A stretch of DNA of 30,479 nt from a virus: the IMG/VR virus record IMGVR_UViG_3300042156_000117, positions 1 to 30,479 of that record. The stretch is one strand, 5' to 3'. The position numbers and the translations under genes are program-made. Under the pieces are notes generated by a model that made no database searches, was not told the DNA's origin, and saw only the letters and a list, made by a program, of their open reading frames with translations. Of this stretch, positions 1,638-30,460 are shown piece after piece; position 1 is the first letter of the stretch, and each line of letters opens with the position of its first letter.

Positions 1638-1794
1638 GTCCAAATCCATCAGCGAGATGAGCGCCATCGAGCTTCTGTCGCACATCATTCAGAACCCGGA
1701 GTATCTGACCGATACCTATTACATCAAGGACCGGTGGGCCATCGAGGAACGCTATCAGAAGTTGCGCGACGAGGATTTGGACGATGGAAAGTAA
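1630..1794 (+). CDS. Small hypothetical protein (54 aa)
   Basis: A 54-residue acidic, helical-looking protein (MAKSKSISEMSAIELLSHII at the start, a D/E-rich end). The ATG at 1630 is preferred over upstream in-frame starts because it gives the usual short overlap with the preceding stop. Its own 3' end overlaps the start of the primase gene by 11 bp. The overlap on both sides implies coupled translation with the primase. The family is unknown. Confidence 0.65.
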   Translation: MAKSKSISEMSAIELLSHIIQNPEYLTDTYYIKDRWAIEERYQKLRDEDLDDGK

Positions 1795-2863
1795 CAAGCC
1801 CCAGCGCCTCGCGACTGCCGAAGAGTTCCTGCGCCAGCTCCAGCACACCATCCCTGAGGCCGAACGTGTCATGGTCGGCTATGCGGAGGAGGCCACCGTG
1901 CAAACCGACGCGAGCGGGAAGAAGGTCAATGCTGGTTGGTGGCCGGTGCCGTGGAAGGACGGCAAATATGTGAACTCGCGCGCCAACTGCTATGCCTGCA
2001 TTTCGTCCTCGGTGAAGACCCCGAACCCGCGAACCGGTGAGATGCGCTATTGGCGAGGCGAGACCAGCTTTGGCCACGGACTGGCCCTGATGGTGGACGA
2101 TATCGGCGACGGCAAAGGCTCCAAGGGCGGACTCGGCCTGGACTTCTTTGAGCTCAGGCTGCCACCTACAGCCACCGTGGAGACGTCGCCAGGCAACTAT
2201 CAGCTATGGTATTTCTTCGATGAGCCGGTGGACTCGCTGCTCCACTTCAAGGCACTGCTGAATTGCTTCGTGGCGAACGTGCTGAAGAAGGGCGGCGACA
2301 ACACCATCAAGGACATTTCGCGCTTCGGGCGGATGCCCATCGGCTACAACAACAAGCGCGAAGGACCAGACGGCAAGCTGAAGTATGCGATGGAGGACGG
2401 CAAGCCGTTCCAGGTGCGCCTGGTCCACGCAGACTACTCGCGGCGCTACTCGCCCGAAGAGGTTGCCCGCCAGTTCGGCTTCTCCATCGTCCTGCCGCAG
2501 AAGCCGGCGCTGACCATCAACGAGGATGATTGGAAATTCGATCAAGTCTGGTTGAAGTATGCCGAGCGCATTTGCTCCAAGTTGCAGATGGGCGAAGGTT
2601 CGGGCGGCGAGGTTTCCATGAACATGTCCGGCAAATATCGCATCCGCTGTCCCTGGGGCGATGAGCACACCAACGGCGACCCGTTCGGCGCCTACTTCCG
2701 TGGGCCGATCCCTGGTGCAGAGCATGAGTATGTGTTCGGTTGCGGTCACGATACCTGCCGCAAACTCCACAAGCGTACCTGGGCCGTCTTCATCGACGAA
2801 ATCGTTATACCTTACATGGCCGATGCGTTAGAATCGATCAACCGAAAAGCAGCAGGAATCTGA
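1784..2863 (+). CDS. RepB-type DNA primase (AEP-like) with C-terminal zinc domain
   Basis: A 359-residue putative replication primase. The core resembles the RepB_primase/archaeo-eukaryotic primase-like family: residues about 97-112 carry GHGLALMVDDIGDGKG with the paired acidic residues expected for metal binding, about 137-147 the NYQLWYFFDEP strand, and about 179-194 RFGRMPIGYNNKREGP, the basic nucleotide-binding stretch. The C-terminus has CPWGDEHT near residue 288 and CGHDTCRKLHKRT near 320, the Cys/His spacing of the small zinc-binding module often found after this core. The gene lies about 2.3 kb upstream of a VirE-type helicase in the same direction, the usual primase-helicase pairing of phages and integrative elements. 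It probably lays down primers at the phage origin. Motif reading only; catalytic activity is inferred. Confidence 0.8.
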   Translation: MESNKPQRLATAEEFLRQLQHTIPEAERVMVGYAEEATVQTDASGKKVNAGWWPVPWKDGKYVNSRANCYACISSSVKTPNPRTGEMRYWRGETSFGHGLALMVDDIGDGKGSKGGLGLDFFELRLPPTATVETSPGNYQLWYFFDEPVDSLLHFKALLNCFVANVLKKGGDNTIKDISRFGRMPIGYNNKREGPDGKLKYAMEDGKPFQVRLVHADYSRRYSPEEVARQFGFSIVLPQKPALTINEDDWKFDQVWLKYAERICSKLQMGEGSGGEVSMNMSGKYRIRCPWGDEHTNGDPFGAYFRGPIPGAEHEYVFGCGHDTCRKLHKRTWAVFIDEIVIPYMADALESINRKAAGI

Positions 2864-5125: not shown

Positions 5126-6823
5126 ATGAACACAGAGGAACCGGGCGCCAGCAATGGCACTCACGATGATTCCGATATGTTCGACCTCTCGCTGATGACC
5201 GACGCTGGATTCAGTGAAGAGATGGAAGCCGCAGAAGAGGAAGCTGTACAGGTCGCGCTCAAGCTCAGCCATCGCGGCCACCGATCAGCGGTTGATGATG
5301 CTGAAATATACGCTGAGGCGAACCTCGCCAAACGCGCCAGACGCCTCGCCCAGTTCGTGATCTTCAAGCACTTCAAGAAGGCTTCAAAGGTCAAGGATGA
5401 AGACGTTGGCCCGCAACCCGATCCATCCTCATCGCTAAACATGTACCTGGCCTTTGACGCCCTCTTTGATAAGGGCAGCGGCCGTGTGCCATTCCCGCAC
5501 GTCGATACCTTCCGAGGCCGGCACGTCGATCATCGCGGCGAGCCAATCGAGAAGTTGATGGACACCCGCGAGATCGAAGAGGCCATGGACGAAATTGGCC
5601 TGGTGAACCCGCGCCGGAAGATCGTCCAAGAGTGCTATGAGCAATGGGCGCTCACGCACTTCCACGACCCGATTCAACACTACATCAGGACCAAGACGCC
5701 CGACTGGGACGGCGTATCGCGCCTGGATGACTCGCTGATCAAATTGTTCCGCCCGAAGGACACGCCGCTGACCAGGCTGGTCAGTCGCTACTTCTGGTTG
5801 TCACTCTATCAACGCATCATGTTTCCTGGGACGCTGGCGCAACTCTCCATCGCGCTGATCGGCGCCCAGGATGCGGGCAAGTCGTATTTCTCTCTGCTCC
5901 TTTGCCGCACCTTGATGGGCCAGCCGGACGTCCTCCCGACGCTGCTGGACCTCGGGGCGAAGGACTACAAGGAATTTCTGCGCAACATCACCGGCCAGTC
6001 CATCATCGCCAACGTCGGTGAGATGACCGGTATGAAGCACGGCGACCTGAACCGCATCAAGGAATTTGTTGCCAAGCCCGCAGACCAGTTTGACTACAAG
6101 TTTTTGTCCTCCAAGACCAAGCAGCGGCAATGGATCACCATCATGGATGGCAACGGCTACGATGGCCTGCAGCGCGACGACACCGGCAACAGGCGATTCT
6201 ATCCGCTGTTCGTGTACCAGACTGAGGACGTCGAAGGCAAGCCGGCCTGGGAGAAGGGCGTCCGCATTGACTACTCTGAGTTTGAGCAGGACATCTGGCA
6301 GATCATGGCCGAGTGCCGCGACTGGGTTGCCGCGAACGGCTTCGACGGCTGGCTGGCACTCACCAAAGAGGTTAACCAGGGCGTGTCCGCCTTCTCCGAG
6401 TCAGAAATGAATAGTGCTCGTGGCGTGATCCGTGACGAGACGGTGGAGGGCGCCATCAAGCAAGTGCTGGTGAATTGCGATGTGTTCGACGTCGCGCCTC
6501 GCGGCACCAGCAAAGGCAAGTTCTTCATTGAGACCATGAACATGCTGGTCATCTTTGATAAGCTCGCCAAGATCAAGACATTCCCGCGCGCCTTGACGCC
6601 TCACATGAAGGCCATGGGGTTCGAAGCGGCGCAGATCGGTTCGCGCGGCTGGGCGATGGACAAGGCCAAATTGATGGATTTGTATGGCATCGCGGAGCAT
6701 GATTTGAGCGTCAGGGATATGCATCGCCACATCGCGGCGCACCACATCGATGAAGAGTTGGATGTGGCCGATTTGGATATGATGGTGACTCGTTGGAAAA
6801 CGACCGAAAGCGAGCGCTTCTGA
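5126..6823 (+). CDS. VirE/D5-family replicative helicase (superfamily 3-like ATPase)
   Basis: A 565-residue protein of the virulence-associated E / phage replication ATPase type. Walker A is GAQDAGKS near residues 246-253. NVGEMTG near 295-301 supplies the acidic Walker B position. DGNGYDGLQRDDTGNRRFYPL near 340-360 matches the family's arginine-bearing sensor stretch (D-x-TGNRRF). The N-terminal 100 residues are acidic and variable, and the C-terminal 150 are probably a DNA- or partner-binding region. Paired with the RepB-type primase at 1784, it is the likely unwinding enzyme at the phage origin. AAGGAG lies 6 bp before the ATG. The gene has its own promoter and a strong terminator behind it. 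Confidence 0.88.
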   Translation: MNTEEPGASNGTHDDSDMFDLSLMTDAGFSEEMEAAEEEAVQVALKLSHRGHRSAVDDAEIYAEANLAKRARRLAQFVIFKHFKKASKVKDEDVGPQPDPSSSLNMYLAFDALFDKGSGRVPFPHVDTFRGRHVDHRGEPIEKLMDTREIEEAMDEIGLVNPRRKIVQECYEQWALTHFHDPIQHYIRTKTPDWDGVSRLDDSLIKLFRPKDTPLTRLVSRYFWLSLYQRIMFPGTLAQLSIALIGAQDAGKSYFSLLLCRTLMGQPDVLPTLLDLGAKDYKEFLRNITGQSIIANVGEMTGMKHGDLNRIKEFVAKPADQFDYKFLSSKTKQRQWITIMDGNGYDGLQRDDTGNRRFYPLFVYQTEDVEGKPAWEKGVRIDYSEFEQDIWQIMAECRDWVAANGFDGWLALTKEVNQGVSAFSESEMNSARGVIRDETVEGAIKQVLVNCDVFDVAPRGTSKGKFFIETMNMLVIFDKLAKIKTFPRALTPHMKAMGFEAAQIGSRGWAMDKAKLMDLYGIAEHDLSVRDMHRHIAAHHIDEELDVADLDMMVTRWKTTESERF

Positions 6824-6878: not shown

Positions 6879-7029
6879 GTCCGCTGATTTTTGGGTGTAG
6901 GAGCTATCCGATAAGTTGTTGTGTGGTTGGTTACTTGTTTGTGGTTGTTGGTTCGTGGTGTGTGTGCGCTTGCCGCGTTTGGTCTGACTGTAAAGTGTGG
7001 ATTTAGTGTCGACAACCAGTGTAAAGAGT

Positions 7030-7049
7030 TATCGGATAGCTATCCGATA
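7030..7049. repeat. Perfect 20-bp palindrome
   Basis: TATCGGATAGCTATCCGATA is its own reverse complement. It consists of two head-to-head copies of the TATC-S-GATA dyad joined by GC, and is the tightest site arrangement in locus A. A third copy follows at 7054. Confidence 0.9.
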
Positions 7050-7290
7050 TTTCTATCCGATAACTTTCGATGGGAAGGGTAGTTGCCGCGAGGGTGCGCC
7101 GGGTGTGGGTTGTAGAATCGAGCCGCGAAGTTTGCGGATAATCGGATAGCTTTTCGATTTTCGAACTTATTAAGAAATATATACGAACGACGCTAAACGT
7201 TAGCACGCAAACTAACACGTTTTCTCCTAACGGAATATATATGTATGTATATCCGATTATCCGATATATTTAGCGATATGAAATCCGAAA

Positions 7291-7405
7291 CCCAGGCAGG
7301 GCGCGGCCTGCAGCCAACTCCAAACTTATCGGATGGCGCGGCCAGGCCTCAAATTCACATCGCATTAGCCGATAAGTTCCACGCAGCCCAGGCAGGGCGC
7401 GGCCT
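7291..7405 (+). repeat. 19-bp direct repeat pair in locus A
   Basis: CCCAGGCAGGGCGCGGCCT occurs at 7291-7309 and again at 7387-7405, 96 bp apart. A partial, rearranged copy (GGCGCGGCCAGGCCT) lies between them near 7335. The pair is not present in locus B. Confidence 0.85.
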
Positions 7406-7515
7406 CCGCAATCGATCCACACAACCACAGCAATCAGCGGCCATGTACCACAAACCACGCATCAGCAACATTTGGGAGAGCAACACTGGCCAGATATACA
7501 CCGCCAACATGCCCA

Positions 7516-7545
7516 TAGACCACGCACACCGCGCGGCGGTATACT
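7516..7545 (+). promoter_or_regulatory. Candidate promoter for the small-terminase gene
   Basis: TAGACC at 7516-7521, an 18-bp spacer ending in GCGCGGCGG, and TATACT at 7540-7545. The spacer end and -10 box (GCGCGGCGGTATA) are identical to the promoter in locus B at 29014-29026. The -35 is weak but resembles the TAGAAC used before the large terminase. Confidence 0.5.
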
Positions 7546-7637
7546 TCATTCAACCAACTTGCAAGTTGCAACTTCCGCAACTAGTCAAGTCAACTAACAT
7601 ACATATCCACAATTGCAACTAAGTGTGAGCCACGAAG

Positions 7638-8147
7638 ATGTCTGACGATTATCTGCCAAACGCGAAAGACTTTGAAGACGAGAAGTTTGCGCTGATGAAT
7701 ACAGCATTCTTCGACAAATACATCAAGTTGCGTCTGGAGGGCGTCGGCTCCTATCGCGCATTTCGCCAGACCTTCGGTGACGATCTAATCGACGGTTTCA
7801 CCACTTCTCGCATCTACGCGCTGGAGCGGAACCCGTATTTCACCAAGCACTTCAAGCAGCGTTTCGACGTCCTGAAGCCTGCGGATATGTGGTCGCCAAA
7901 GGTTTCCGTCTTCGAACTGCTCCAGATCGTTAAGGACGACATGAACAAGGCGACCAGCCGAATCTCGGCCATCAGAGAGTTGAACGTGCTCCTGGGCATC
8001 ACAGTCATCGATGACCTCGGCAAGAGCAAGGTCAGCCGGTCGCTGGAGGATTTCTACAAGGAGAATGGCGATGCAATCCAAGACGCTGTCGCCGGAGGGG
8101 ACCAGGGCGAAATCCCAGCCCCAAACCCCACCCATACGACCCATTAG
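7638..8147 (+). CDS. Putative terminase small subunit
   Basis: A 169-residue protein. Residues about 25-75 (FDKYIKLRLEGVGSYRAFRQTFGD, then TSRIYALERNPYFTKHFKQR) look like a helix-turn-helix DNA-binding region followed by a helix, as in small terminases of the P22/PBSX-like groups. A middle helical segment (MNKATSRISAIRELNVLLGI) resembles their oligomerisation region, and the C-terminus is a low-complexity Pro/Thr/His tail. It would recognise the packaging site and load the large subunit. The large terminase lies 9.1 kb downstream beyond a reverse-strand block, so the pairing is inferred from order and direction rather than adjacency. A generic DNA-binding regulator is the alternative. Confidence 0.55.
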   Translation: MSDDYLPNAKDFEDEKFALMNTAFFDKYIKLRLEGVGSYRAFRQTFGDDLIDGFTTSRIYALERNPYFTKHFKQRFDVLKPADMWSPKVSVFELLQIVKDDMNKATSRISAIRELNVLLGITVIDDLGKSKVSRSLEDFYKENGDAIQDAVAGGDQGEIPAPNPTHTTH

Positions 8148-11578: not shown

Positions 11579-11869
11579 GGCGTTCATTCCGATTGGTTGA
11601 AGTGGAGTGAATGGCACCAGACCGCCCGTCCGCCAATCCTTCTAGCATTCCCGGAACGGCCCAGCGCGACTGAAGCCCGATTGCGGCCTGGCGTCAAGTG
11701 CCGGCCTCCATACCATGAACGCCCGCATCCGTTTGGGCGATCCGGACACTGGCAGCTATATGCGCCTTGGGTGCCCGCCTCGATGATCGACGGGAAGCGC
11801 CTGCCTGATGTCCGACCTAGTCAGTAGCTGGCGCTGACCATCCATGCGTCGCGGTCCTGCTGGTGCCGA
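11579..11869. other. Gene-poor 0.29-kb stretch
   Basis: No reading frame with a ribosome binding site was found on either strand here; minus-strand frames are 30 codons or shorter. It follows a candidate minus-strand -10 box at 11869-11874 and may be a long 5' leader of the 11327 gene or the remains of a lost cassette. Confidence 0.4.
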
Positions 11870-11883
11870 TTATACCTGGCTGG
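11869..11883 (-). promoter_or_regulatory. Candidate -10 region at the end of the 11870 gene
   Basis: On the minus strand CCAGCCAGG is followed by TATAAT (11869-11874), overlapping the stop codon of the 11870 gene. The same string CCAGCCAGGTATA precedes the large-terminase gene on the plus strand at 17227-17239. There is no good -35 at 17 bp. Confidence 0.35.
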
Positions 11884-12040
11884 ATGAGGTCCGGATAGCA
11901 ATCGGAAGGAGGCGCATGGGCGCGCGTTCGGTCTGTTCATCTCGGACATAGTCGCGCGTCGGCGTCCAGTCGACATGTCCACCTGGGCGTTTGATGGTCC
12001 ATCCCATTGCGTTGCGCTTGTATTCTTGGTTATTAGTCAT
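11870..12040 (-). CDS. Small hypothetical protein (56 aa)
   Basis: A 56-residue protein (MTNNQEYKRNAMGWTIKRPG at its start). The ATG at 12040 has AGGAGAAG about 5 bp upstream and is preferred to an in-frame start 18 bp earlier. The Trp/Gly/Arg-rich middle gives no recognisable family. The stop codon overlaps a candidate -10 box. Confidence 0.6.
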   Translation of the reverse strand: MTNNQEYKRNAMGWTIKRPGGHVDWTPTRDYVRDEQTERAPMRLLPIAIRTSSSQV

Positions 12041-19156: not shown

Positions 19157-19681
19157 CTAGTTTTCTTTGTGGTTGAGGTAGTGGAACAGGAACAAGCCGC
19201 ACACCAGGCCGGCAAAGCAAATCAAAACACCAACTCCGATGCCGCGAACGAACTCGGCTTGGGCTTTGAAGTGGAAATACAGGTGCTGGGCGCGAATCTC
19301 GCGGACTTGCGCGGCGGTATACGTCGCCTGGCCAGCGTATTGGCCCGGTTTGGCCACAGAAGACCCATCGACTGGCGGAATAGGGACTAAGGCCTGGTCC
19401 GATACCTTGGACCATCCTGGGGCGCCCTGGCCCACCGGGCGCTCGGCAGCCAGCAGGCCGTTATCGTGCAGCGCGACGACTATGCCAATCGCCACAACCA
19501 GGATGACTTGGACGACCCGGAGGCGCCATTTATCGGTTCTTTGGCGCTGGCGGTCCAGCGCGGTTTCCAGGTCCAGCAAATCATTCTCCAGCTTCTTGAT
19601 GTAGTCCTCGCGAGAAATTGCGCGGGTGATGTCCTCCGGGCGACGGGCGCCAGGAGTGTCGATGAATCCCTTGTATCGCAT
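19157..19681 (-). CDS. Membrane protein with two transmembrane segments
   Basis: A 174-residue protein. An N-terminal cytoplasmic region with a coiled-coil stretch (YIKKLENDLLDLETALDRQR) is followed by one transmembrane helix (VVQVILVVAIGIVVAL), a roughly 80-residue loop likely in the periplasm, and a second helix (GIGVGVLICFAGLVCGLFLF) near the C-terminus. The ATG at 19681 follows GAGGA; TTG at 19687, overlapping the upstream stop, is an alternative. The layout could suit a superinfection or host-membrane factor, but no family is recognised. Confidence 0.7.
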   Translation of the reverse strand: MRYKGFIDTPGARRPEDITRAISREDYIKKLENDLLDLETALDRQRQRTDKWRLRVVQVILVVAIGIVVALHDNGLLAAERPVGQGAPGWSKVSDQALVPIPPVDGSSVAKPGQYAGQATYTAAQVREIRAQHLYFHFKAQAEFVRGIGVGVLICFAGLVCGLFLFHYLNHKEN

Positions 19682-19683
19682 TA

Positions 19684-20421
19684 TCAATCCTCGATGGAGC
19701 GAATGATTTCAACTTTGTGGCCGGCAACTACGCCAGCATTGAAGGCGTCGGCATCTTCCAGGCTGGCGACGGTCGGCAACTTGCCTTTCTTGTACTGGAT
19801 ATCACCGAAGCGCTCGGCAACCGCCTTCTCTTTGGCGACGATCAGCGCGGTTCCGGTGGAGCCGGCCTGGCTGGTCAGCGCCTCGCGCTCTTTGGTCATG
19901 GCGCGCAGACGGCGGGTGATGGTGTCGATTGCTGCGTGCTTGAACTGGCCGCCAAGGCGGACGTTGTACTTGGGAAGGCCCAGGCCGTCCATGTACTCTT
20001 TGCAGAGCTTGTTGATGGCCGCTTCCAGCGAGTTGTACATTTGGACGCACATCTCAACGTCTGACTGATAGCCACGGAACTGCATGGCCTTGCCCATCTT
20101 CTTGCGGTCACCGACCTTCTTCTTGAAGTCCACGACGCCCCAGTCAAAGACGGCCTGGCAGTCATTGTACTTGGCGATGGCGCAGCCAAAGAAGCTGAGG
20201 TAGAGCGGGAAGGCAGCGAAGTGGCGGGTGGCGTTCATGGACAGGAACTCTTCGATGAACCCGGCCTGGCAATCCATCGCGTCCAGCTGATACTTGTCCA
20301 TCAGCTTGCGAGCACGCGAGGCAGCGATGGCGGCCTCATTCGGGCTGGACGAATCTTCCGCCATAGCGAGCAACTTGGCGATGCGATCCTTGATTTTCTG
20401 CAGGTCGGTAGTGTCGTTCAT
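19684..20421 (-). CDS. DUF2786 family protein
   Basis: A 245-residue protein. The N-terminus (KIKDRIAKLLAMAEDSSSPN followed by EAAIAASRARKLMDKYQLD) is a clear match to the DUF2786 signature found in many phages and mobile elements. The C-terminal part, from about residue 60, resembles the usual partner domain with conserved Asn/Tyr/Arg. Biochemical role not known to me. Promoter 20463-20491 carries an inverted repeat round the -10 box. Confidence 0.8.
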   Translation of the reverse strand: MNDTTDLQKIKDRIAKLLAMAEDSSSPNEAAIAASRARKLMDKYQLDAMDCQAGFIEEFLSMNATRHFAAFPLYLSFFGCAIAKYNDCQAVFDWGVVDFKKKVGDRKKMGKAMQFRGYQSDVEMCVQMYNSLEAAINKLCKEYMDGLGLPKYNVRLGGQFKHAAIDTITRRLRAMTKEREALTSQAGSTGTALIVAKEKAVAERFGDIQYKKGKLPTVASLEDADAFNAGVVAGHKVEIIRSIED

Positions 20422-20449
20422 CTTTCTATCCTCTTTCTGGGGAGTTCGT

Positions 20450-20491
20450 TTCAGATGGCGCCATTATCCGCCACCTGAAACCCAAAGTAAA
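20450..20491 (-). promoter_or_regulatory. Promoter with near-perfect inverted repeat round the -10 box
   Basis: TTTACT (20486-20491), 17 bp, GATAAT (20463-20468). TTCAGATGGCG (20450-20460) and CGCCACCTGAA (20469-20479) match at 10 of 11 positions and flank the -10 box. Confidence 0.7.
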
Positions 20492-20507
20492 CCCCTTTTT
20501 GGAAATA

Positions 20508-21104
20508 TTATCGAACGCTGAACATACGTCCACCGATGACGTCCAAAACATACTCCCACAACGCCTCCTCCGGGAGTTGGAAGCGGTCGAAGTGCGCATC
20601 AGGCGTCACGCCAACGGCGCAGTATGAGGTGGCGCCGCGACTGAATTCGGCGGTCTTGGTCATGATCGTGGCAGCTTTCCCGTCCTGGCAGACCGGCATG
20701 GACGTGTGAAGTTCATACGGCTTGATTTCGTAGCGGTCGCCTGGGTTTATCCACTTGTTTGCGCGGTGCGCCTTGTATTCGGCGATGCTGACCCAACCAC
20801 TGCGATCCCACGGACGCCCTCCGCCAGCCATCCTAGGACCTTCGTGGCGATATGCTGCGTGAGTCGCGTAGCGCTCTGACTCCTTCGGCTCTGCCTTGTA
20901 CATGGTGCTATTGAGGATTCCGACCAACACCTGGCTGGTGAAGCCAAACCGATGGTCGTGGATGGCAGAATCCTTGAAGCATGCCCGGCGCGGCAAGTCC
21001 GGGTGCCAAACGTGCATACGCTGGTTGCCGTCCAGCTGGACCTGGATGAATCCGAGGCCGTGGAGGGATATCTTGGACTTCATTTTATCATCGATAGTGG
21101 ACAT
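20508..21104 (-). CDS. Cupin-like protein
   Basis: A 198-residue protein. IHDHRFGFTSQVLVG near residue 48 followed about 75 residues later by PYELHTSMPV resembles the two His-bearing strands of a cupin barrel (H-x-H, then H), as in cysteine dioxygenase-like proteins. The sequence between is rich in Tyr/Arg/Gly. A metal-dependent enzyme or binding protein is possible; no specific substrate can be named. GGTGA lies 6 bp before the ATG. Confidence 0.55.
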   Translation of the reverse strand: MSTIDDKMKSKISLHGLGFIQVQLDGNQRMHVWHPDLPRRACFKDSAIHDHRFGFTSQVLVGILNSTMYKAEPKESERYATHAAYRHEGPRMAGGGRPWDRSGWVSIAEYKAHRANKWINPGDRYEIKPYELHTSMPVCQDGKAATIMTKTAEFSRGATSYCAVGVTPDAHFDRFQLPEEALWEYVLDVIGGRMFSVR

Positions 21105-28610: not shown

Positions 28611-28619
28611 TGTTAAGAG

Positions 28620-28653
28620 TTATCGGATAACTTCCAAGGAGGTTATCCGATAA
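28620..28653. repeat. 12-bp perfect inverted repeat in locus B
   Basis: TTATCGGATAAC (28620-28631) and GTTATCCGATAA (28642-28653) are perfect complements with a 10-bp spacer. Each arm is a full TTATC-S-GATAA dyad. Confidence 0.9.
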
Positions 28654-28998
28654 TTTATCCGATAAGTTTGCACACCTAGTGCCGCGTGCGTTTGCTGGGA
28701 AGTTATCGGATAATCGGATAGAGTTGCAATTTTCGCAAGCTTTACGGAAATATATAAGACTCTTCCATTTAGTGTACTATTCCTGAAATATTTCTCCTAA
28801 CGTATTCAAATGCAATATCTATCCGATTATCCGGGAAGTATTAGCGATTGAATCGCAGACCCCTTGCGGCAGTAAGGACGCACACAACTCCAGACCCATC
28901 GCATGGACTTCCCGGATAGATTGCGGCAAATTATCCGATAACTTCGCCACTCTTCCCGTCCAATACACGACGCACGGCCATGCCCCTCTATATTACAC

Positions 28999-29028
28999 TT
29001 GCCCTCACACTTGGCGCGGCGGTATAAT
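28999..29028 (+). promoter_or_regulatory. Promoter for the DUF2213 gene
   Basis: TTGCCC (28999-29004), 18 bp ending GGCGCGGCGG, TATAAT (29023-29028). The predicted start is about 28 bases before the ATG. It shares GCGCGGCGGTATA with the locus A promoter. Confidence 0.65.
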
Positions 29029-29062
29029 GCCAACCATCTTTCGTATTATCTGAATAACACCG

Positions 29063-30460
29063 ATGCCAAGATCAGCGCGAAGAATCGACGAAAATGGGTA
29101 CATGACAGTGCGTGCATGTCCAATATCGTCTTTTGGCATATTCGATTATTCGGCAGGCCAACTTGGCTTGCCTGGTGATCCGAATCGCATAGTCAAAGTC
29201 TTCCGCCCGGAGTCTGCCGTCAGCAGCCTTGAGGCCATCGAGTCGTTCAAAGATATCCCTCTCATCAATGACCATGAAATGCTTTCCGGGTTCGATGGTG
29301 ATGACGAGAACACCGCCCCGGAAGACTACGGCATTGACGGTGTAATGACCGGCAATGTGTACTATGAGGCGCCGTGGATGCGCGGCGACCTCAAGGTGTT
29401 CAGTCGTTCGATGCAGCAGGCCCTTCGCAAAGGCAAAAAATGCCTTTCCCTTGGGTATGATTGCGACTTCGAAGAGGCCCCAGGCACTTGGCAAGGGCAA
29501 GCCTATGAGCTGGTCCAAGTCAACATGCGCGGAAACCACATTGCACTCGTTGATGACGGGCGCGTGCCGGGCGCGCGAGTGCTCGATGGTCGTTGCTTCG
29601 ACCACATGAGCTTCACCTTCAAACCATCCGATGAGGACGACACCATGCCGAAAGGTATCAAGGCGATGGACAAAGCGGCTCGTGATTCTGCCGTGGACGA
29701 CCTTCGCAAGCTGATCCCGGCCCTCACTTCCGCCATGGAAAAATTCCTGGCTGAAGAGGCCCAAGAACCGCAGCACGAAGGTGGCGAACAACCCGCTGCC
29801 GACCCCGCTGCCGACCCCGCTGCCAAGCCGGAAGAGGGCACCCCGGAGGCCATCGCCCAGCCGGAGCAGGACGTTGATCCCGCTGCCGAACCCGCTGCCG
29901 AGGGCAACAGCCTGGAAGAGCTGATTGGCGCCGCTCGCGACCTGCTGGCCCGTCTGGAGGCCGCAGCTGGCGGCGAGCAACCGCAACCGGAAAGCGAGGC
30001 ACCGGCACAGGATGAAGTCGAAGCCAACGAGGTCAAAGACACCGTTGAGGGCCTCCAAGCTCAAGACCCGGTTGAGGGCGCCCAAGTCGCCACCGACGAA
30101 GACCCCATGGCCGCTGCCGTCGACAACGAAGACCCTGCCGTCCCAGCCCAAAAGGCTCAAGACGCTGCGCTTCGCCATTTCTACGCTGATGCTGCTGCTA
30201 AGGATAGCCTCTACAAGCGTGTTAGTCCCCTGGTTGGTGCATTTGATCACCGAGCTATGGACGCGCGTGCGGTCAGCGTTTACGGCGTGAAGAAACTCGG
30301 CATCAAGTGTGCCGATGGCCAAGAAATGGTCGTTCTCGATGCCTACCTGTCGGGCATCGAAATGGCAAACAAGGCAGCCAAAACTGCTCCGCAAAAACGT
30401 GCCCAGGATGCCGCTCCGAAGTGCGATGAACTGGAAGACTACCTGAAGGGGAGTATTTAA
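29063..30460 (+). CDS. DUF2213 prohead protease/scaffold protein
   Basis: A 465-residue protein of the DUF2213 family, usually found between Mu F-like and major capsid genes. Conserved points fit a serine-type prohead protease: H71 (INDHEM), S129 (CLSLGYDC) and H159 (MRGNHIALVDDGRV). From about residue 190 the protein is a low-complexity Ala/Pro/Glu/Gln scaffold-like region with a DPAADPAAK/EPAAEG repeat, followed by a helical C-terminus (RHFYADAAAKDSLYKRVSPL). There is no clear ribosome site before ATG 29063; M14 (29102) is an alternative start. A nested start at 29645 is likely (see separate entry). Confidence 0.83.
   Translation: MPRSARRIDENGYMTVRACPISSFGIFDYSAGQLGLPGDPNRIVKVFRPESAVSSLEAIESFKDIPLINDHEMLSGFDGDDENTAPEDYGIDGVMTGNVYYEAPWMRGDLKVFSRSMQQALRKGKKCLSLGYDCDFEEAPGTWQGQAYELVQVNMRGNHIALVDDGRVPGARVLDGRCFDHMSFTFKPSDEDDTMPKGIKAMDKAARDSAVDDLRKLIPALTSAMEKFLAEEAQEPQHEGGEQPAADPAADPAAKPEEGTPEAIAQPEQDVDPAAEPAAEGNSLEELIGAARDLLARLEAAAGGEQPQPESEAPAQDEVEANEVKDTVEGLQAQDPVEGAQVATDEDPMAAAVDNEDPAVPAQKAQDAALRHFYADAAAKDSLYKRVSPLVGAFDHRAMDARAVSVYGVKKLGIKCADGQEMVVLDAYLSGIEMANKAAKTAPQKRAQDAAPKCDELEDYLKGSI
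29645..30460 (+). CDS. Candidate nested in-frame scaffold gene (271 aa)
   Basis: ATG 29645 (M195 of the DUF2213 protein) is preceded by GAGG at exactly 8 bp. Translation from here would give the scaffold-like part without the protease, MPKGIKAMDKAARDS onward. This is the arrangement of lambda C/Nu3-type nested scaffolds, but it is inferred only from the ribosome site and domain boundary. Confidence 0.45.
   Translation: MPKGIKAMDKAARDSAVDDLRKLIPALTSAMEKFLAEEAQEPQHEGGEQPAADPAADPAAKPEEGTPEAIAQPEQDVDPAAEPAAEGNSLEELIGAARDLLARLEAAAGGEQPQPESEAPAQDEVEANEVKDTVEGLQAQDPVEGAQVATDEDPMAAAVDNEDPAVPAQKAQDAALRHFYADAAAKDSLYKRVSPLVGAFDHRAMDARAVSVYGVKKLGIKCADGQEMVVLDAYLSGIEMANKAAKTAPQKRAQDAAPKCDELEDYLKGSI
29792..29901 (+). 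repeat. CCCGCTGCCGA tandem and dispersed repeats in the scaffold region
   Basis: The 12-bp unit CCCGCTGCCGAC repeats nearly three times at 29792-29826 and twice more, as CCCGCTGCCGAA/G, at 29879-29901. It encodes (D/E)PAA repeats, a slippage-prone stretch inside the scaffold-like part. Confidence 0.75.

Follow-up and report, generated by a model that had tools for sequence, protein, structure and literature searches.

What is the function of two AT-rich non-coding loci, here termed A and B, that carry the same elements in the same order within one fragment of a phage genome? The DNA analysed, referred to as the window, is an entire virus record of 30,479 bases. On the evidence of its encoded proteins, the source phage is a PB1/BcepF1-like virulent myovirus. 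Placement with the PB1-like and BcepF1-like myoviruses rests on the portal-region protein, the helicase and the head protease, and comparison of gene order revealed the arrangement of these phages in the window: RepB-type primase, VapE-like helicase, locus A, phrog_4783 gene, small genes, terminase, head genes, locus B and head protease. The genes that frame the two loci are all encoded on the plus strand and comprise a RepB-type DNA primase (1784..2863; Pfam RepB_primase, E = 4.9e-46; phrog_4861), a VapE/D5-type AAA+ helicase that is the candidate initiator (5126..6823; phrog_4630, E = 2e-181; Pfam VapE-like_dom, E = 1.5e-24), the phrog_4783 gene after A (7638..8147) and the head maturation protease gene after B (29063..30460; phrog_3778, E = 2.5e-167). 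An Rfam scan of the window returned no RNA families; ARAGORN called an 89-base tRNA-Ala (anticodon agc) at 11867-11955, which may be spurious.

Anatomy of loci A and B

Locus A (6902..7546) is an origin-like module that begins ∼80 bp past the helicase stop codon, on the 3′ side of that gene. Its left iterons (6904..7149) include TATCCG at 6905, 7033, 7041, 7054, 7135 and 7143, and its right iterons (7250..7375) comprise copies at 7250 and 7258 together with degenerate copies at 7326 and 7365. Between these sets lies an AT-rich core (7150..7249; GC content 0.32 in the lowest 100 bp) that holds GAAATATATA and TTTCTCCTAACG. Pentamers that point outward from the core span 6972..7537, with GCCGC on the left at 6972, 7085 and 7122 and GCGGC on the right at 7303, 7338, 7399, 7437 and 7533; no inward site was found in A. 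A putative promoter-like −10 element, GGTATACT, lies at the 3′ end of the locus (7531..7547, plus strand).

Locus B (28612..29030), the second origin-like module, is not located 3′ of a helicase gene in the window but is organized in the same manner. Left iterons (28620..28721; TATCCG at 28624, 28644, 28656, 28707 and 28715) and right iterons (28820..28941; 28820, 28828, 28913 and 28932) flank an AT-rich core (28722..28819) that again holds GAAATATATA and TTTCTCCTAACG. The iteron sets that surround the AT-rich region thus number six on the left and two plus two degenerate on the right in A, and five and four in B. Outward sites in B (28681..29020) consist of GCCGC at 28681 and GCGGC at 28866, 28923 and 29016, and a promoter-like −10 element, GGTATAAT, lies ∼40 bp before the protease start (29014..29030, plus strand).

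Blocks shared by the two loci were found at the following positions in A and B, respectively: AAGAGTTATCGGATA at 7024 and 28615, CGGATAATCGGATAG at 7135 and 28707, GAAATATATA at 7174 and 28747, TTTCTCCTAACG at 7221 and 28791, TATCCGATTATCCG at 7250 and 28820, TTAGCGAT at ∼7271 and ∼28841, and GCGCGGCGGTATA at 7531 and 29014. From the first iteron pair through TTAGCGAT, the spacings match within ∼2 bp. Global alignment of the collinear ∼160-bp cores (7125-7285 against 28697-28855) gave 110 identical columns out of 166 and a score of 38, compared with a mean of −29.7 (S.D. 5.9, maximum −7) for 1000 shuffles. Of the 15 copies of TATCCGAT in the window, 14 fall in A or B, where 0.51 would be expected; for the looser TATCCG, 17 of 31 copies lie within the 1,266 bp of A and B. 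The sites are not scattered over the rest of the sequence.

These data bear out the original prediction of two loci with the same ordered elements, both of which are present as described, and of unconserved sequence between the elements: only the iterons, the core boxes and the GCGGC sites are common to A and B. Other parts of that description required revision. Clustered TTATCSGATAA dyads had been assigned to both loci; B contains five perfect sites, but A contains versions with one or two mismatches and no perfect one. CGGATAATCGGATA and TATCCGATTATCCG, listed as separate elements, are one element inverted about the AT-rich core. Each locus had also been placed upstream of a head or packaging gene, which holds for B, whereas A precedes the phrog_4783 gene and its more telling neighbor is the VapE-like helicase gene that it follows. 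The closing GCGCGGCGGTATA is present in both loci, but an additional copy outside them, at 19309-19321, means that it is no locus marker when taken alone.

Conservation of the pair and orientation of GCGGC

In most of the distant PB1 relatives examined, the A/B pair recurs at the two positions that it has in the window: A falls in the interval from the VapE/D5-type helicase gene to the phrog_4783 gene, and B lies before the head-protease gene. In whole-genome 10-mer scans, the best match to B was A in the window, PB1, WFC, MyoSmar and BcepF1. Own A-B similarity was assessed in 19 A/B pairs, including contigs from IMG/VR, as core-centered 9-mer sharing compared with dinucleotide shuffles; here, A was searched in the helicase-to-phrog_4783 regions. 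Values of z between 7.4 and 17.9 were obtained for 12 of the 19 genomes (17.6 for the window), and the signal was weak or absent in the remaining seven, some of which (for example, G005) nevertheless have a shared repeat visible by eye. In Luteibacter phage Pluto, an A-like locus is present but a whole-genome 10-mer scan gave no region resembling it as B, so B is not universal. A strongly repeated A was also observed in G006 (GGTTAC, 11 sites) and G013 (TGACGTA, 8 sites); in neither is the repeat of A present before the protease gene, and B may have moved or been lost.

The element set had been expected to recur in relatives, and what recurs is the two-locus arrangement; the exact letters are not conserved, and the repeat differs for each lineage. 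The proportion of genomic copies located in A plus B was 11 of 11 for CTTAGTTA in BcepF1, 5 of 5 for GGTAATTTG in PB1, 8 of 9 for ATACGGAT in WFC and 4 of 7 for the MyoSmar repeat. These counts cover whole genomes (for WFC, that record alone, with the other Wifcevirus record left out) and, given that the repeats were chosen from the loci, describe privacy and not odds of discovery. Most loci have iterons both to the left and to the right of the AT-rich core. Since letters are not conserved between genera, a nucleotide search of phage records with locus A gave no match. A scan of viral contigs with CGGATAATCGGATA returned 77 stretches, all of them single matches except for a near-identical contig.

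The position of A relative to its neighbors was also compared. A directly follows the helicase gene in the window, PB1, MyoSmar, BcepF1 and most contigs; in WFC, G001, G004 and G016, it lies several kilobases downstream of that gene and adjoins the phrog_4783 gene. In nearly all genomes, the phrog_4783 gene comes after A. BcepF1 appeared at one stage to lack this gene at that place, an interpretation rejected on finding an unannotated homologue directly after A (20023-20525, minus strand; 32% identity to window 7638-8147, E = 1e-22).

Across 36 loci, GCGGC was the most strongly strand-asymmetric of all pentamers. It points outward from the core 193 times and inward 15 times, with outward copies present in 36 of 36 loci. 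The ratio of GCCGC to GCGGC was 44:13 to the left of the core and 2:92 to the right in A loci, and 45:2 and 3:32, respectively, in B loci; as the loci are related, Fisher p values for these counts overstate independence. No outward bias was observed in a control region 600-1000 bp to the left (9 GCGGC and 18 GCCGC). For GC skew, the left side of the core had the higher value in 25 of the 27 A loci and in 13 of the 17 B loci. A check for an origin by cumulative GC skew, as had been proposed, did not point to the loci: the extrema lie off A and B in PB1, WFC, MyoSmar and BcepF1.

Candidate functions of the pair

Paired origins were one of three options offered in the original prediction and are the best supported of them; no sign of a partition or recombination system emerged from analyses directed at other features. 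We consider that A and B are probably two cis-acting replication modules, either two iteron origins or an origin with an origin-like partner as in the ori and crr loci of P4, and assign this reading a probability of roughly 70%. A more specific proposal is that, in virulent myoviruses of this family, every genome has a matched pair of iteron origins, both with built-in, symmetric outward GCGGC primase start sites, and that in some genera one core also sets the packaged genome end and so couples the start of replication to packaging; this proposal is tentative, and we rather doubt that it holds in full.

It is unlikely that the pair serves primarily in transcriptional control, with the iterons acting as operators through which a phage regulator or phage sigma factor activates the genes that follow A and B. 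Both loci do close with a −10-like element ahead of a gene, and in 13 of 19 B loci this element lies 35-46 bp before the protease start codon. In addition, the JG024 paper describes AT-rich boxes in PB1-like phages along with conserved intergenic motifs, for which it suggests a phage sigma factor (PMC3008698), and the product of 336-1637, encoded before the primase in the window, matches the WYL domain below threshold and may be a DNA-binding regulator. Against such a role, the inner iteron pair and the promoter-like element are spaced differently in the two loci (about 280 bp apart in A and 190 bp in B), the iterons flank the AT-rich core on both sides, and the GCGGC sites are symmetric about the core, an arrangement needless for one-way transcription. 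The A-like locus of Pluto follows the helicase gene with the phrog_4783 gene elsewhere and not directly next to it. An origin may also carry a promoter, so the two readings are compatible.

A packaging start, in which the genome is cut at A, perhaps on recognition by the phrog_4783 protein, with B as a relic or second site, appears less probable still. The long terminal repeat starts 17 bp (WFC) and 14 bp (G004) from the center of the AT core of A, and the PhageTerm edge of MyoSmar lies 94 bp from it; the terminus data for these three phages were taken from the genome records and from PMC6753285 and PMC6563267. Long terminal repeats whose start falls inside or near the AT core of A were noted at 68689 in NC_048195, 3559 in NC_048800 and 69566 in G004. 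The near-constant presence of the phrog_4783 gene after A would also fit a cutting site, but in Pluto that gene is elsewhere, and B, with the same elements, coincides with no reported terminus. Moreover, the Pbunavirus Banzai is reported to show no terminus by PhageTerm (PMC12390725), whereas A and B are both present in the Pbunaviruses PB1 and Epa6. A terminus within A may instead reflect coupling to replication.

That A and B are simply a functionless duplicated pair, kept alike by recombination between them, is highly improbable. The A and B of one genome are more alike than their counterparts in other genera, as such recombination would produce, but the likeness is confined to the iterons, core boxes and GCGGC sites and does not extend to the sequence between, and the same two genome positions are kept in genera with completely different repeats.

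The candidate initiator and related systems

In the preferred reading of A and B as replication modules, the VapE/D5-type helicase encoded just before A would bind the TATCCGAT iterons through a variable C-terminal domain, by analogy with SaPI Rep and Cch2. Iterons on both sides of the core could load two hexamers, upon which the core would melt. The RepB-type protein is a candidate primase for both origins from its sequence family, and it, or another primase, might start on the lagging-strand templates of both forks. In this least certain step, priming might occur at the outward GCGGC pentamers, and the arms, rich in C and A but poor in G, would provide unstructured template. The promoter-like element that ends each locus would serve the next gene.

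The closest solved relative of the helicase by sequence is SaPI PriRep1 with double-stranded DNA (PDB 7pds, E = 4e-11). An AF2 model of moderate quality (mean pLDDT 79) gave 7pds entries as its top six Foldseek matches, and with VIA, 7pds aligned with Z = 23.8 over model residues 76-520, including the C-terminal region, compared with 12.1 for the next entry. A winged-helix-like domain is predicted, with moderate model confidence, at residues ∼438-520 inside the aligned stretch. In pairwise comparisons, the helicases averaged 49% identity over the AAA core, compared with 22% over the C-terminal region. Co-variation of iteron sequence with this region was negative by a crude metric (partial r = −0.02, p = 0.60), and because of this outcome, the assignment of the helicase as iteron binder draws on the SaPI and Cch2 work. 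G014 has ATAGTTG repeats in common with G011 and G005 but not the C-terminal domain. It is possible that a protein other than the helicase binds the iterons.

The original prediction knew of no named element of this design, a statement that should be amended given two close functional analogues, the SaPI/PICI origin (PMC6092414 and PMC7581432) and the P4 ori/crr pair. In PICIs, the origin is located just past the 3′ end of the initiator gene and has an AT-rich region bracketed by two sets of iterons (PMC6092414), and the SaPI Rep and SCCmec Cch2 work is the source of the proposed C-terminal DNA binding at the site (PMC7581432). The SaPI/PICI Rep-ori systems (PriRep1 and Cch2) thus resemble the present one in their AAA+ initiator helicase, here a candidate with a predicted winged-helix-like C-terminal domain, in an origin or origin-like module 3′ of its gene and in iterons around an AT-rich region. 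They differ in that the present host of the modules is a full-size virulent phage and not a satellite, has two modules per genome with the second ∼20 kb away in the head-gene cluster, encodes a separate RepB-type primase and has symmetric outward GCGGC sites, the last a contrast with the available descriptions (PMC6092414 and PMC7581432).

P4 also has two AT-rich loci with the same initiator repeats (of the TGTTCACC type), one of them directly 3′ of the initiator gene. In the P4 record, both annotation and scanning put crr immediately 3′ of the alpha gene, with ori at a distance of ∼4.5 kb, and as a positive control, a scan from crr recovered ori (35 against a mean of 5.3, S.D. 5.4). Unlike the loci described here, P4 crr consists of two 120-bp direct repeats, type 2 repeats are found in ori alone and neither locus contains GCGGC. 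The P4 alpha protein is a fused primase-helicase. The present helicase has only the VapE-like domain among its Pfam content, with RepB_primase in a separate gene upstream, and is therefore not classed as a P4-type member. The oriV of RSF1010 (RepB′ primase; ssiA/ssiB) shares an encoded RepB-type primase and the idea of oriented single-strand start sites for each strand, but uses one 40-nucleotide hairpin site per strand (PMC4434180), as opposed to a short pentamer repeated several times per arm.

A literature search of partial coverage found no text that describes the A/B loci as origins, and the available text of the JG024 and Banzai papers does not mention paired iteron loci. The latter proposes that the Pbunavirus homologue of the helicase acts as initiator, links it to no origin site in the available text, and derives origin positions from GC skew, with minima away from A and B (PMC12390725). 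PB1-like phages have been sequenced in large numbers and find use against Pseudomonas, yet no iteron origin is assigned to them in the literature searched. In about ten lineages, the A/B loci define exact positions open to testing, and together they provide a natural set of initiator-site pairs whose specificity changes, as well as a candidate for a universal priming motif. Should both modules fire, why would a phage of 65-72 kb keep two? A further feature of the helicases was apparent at their C termini: in 21 of 21 aligned sequences, that of the window (5126-6823) and its homologues, the last residue is phenylalanine, in many cases preceded by a tail that is acidic or rich in glycine. This tip recalls the C-terminal tip of SSB and is possibly part of a partner-docking tail.
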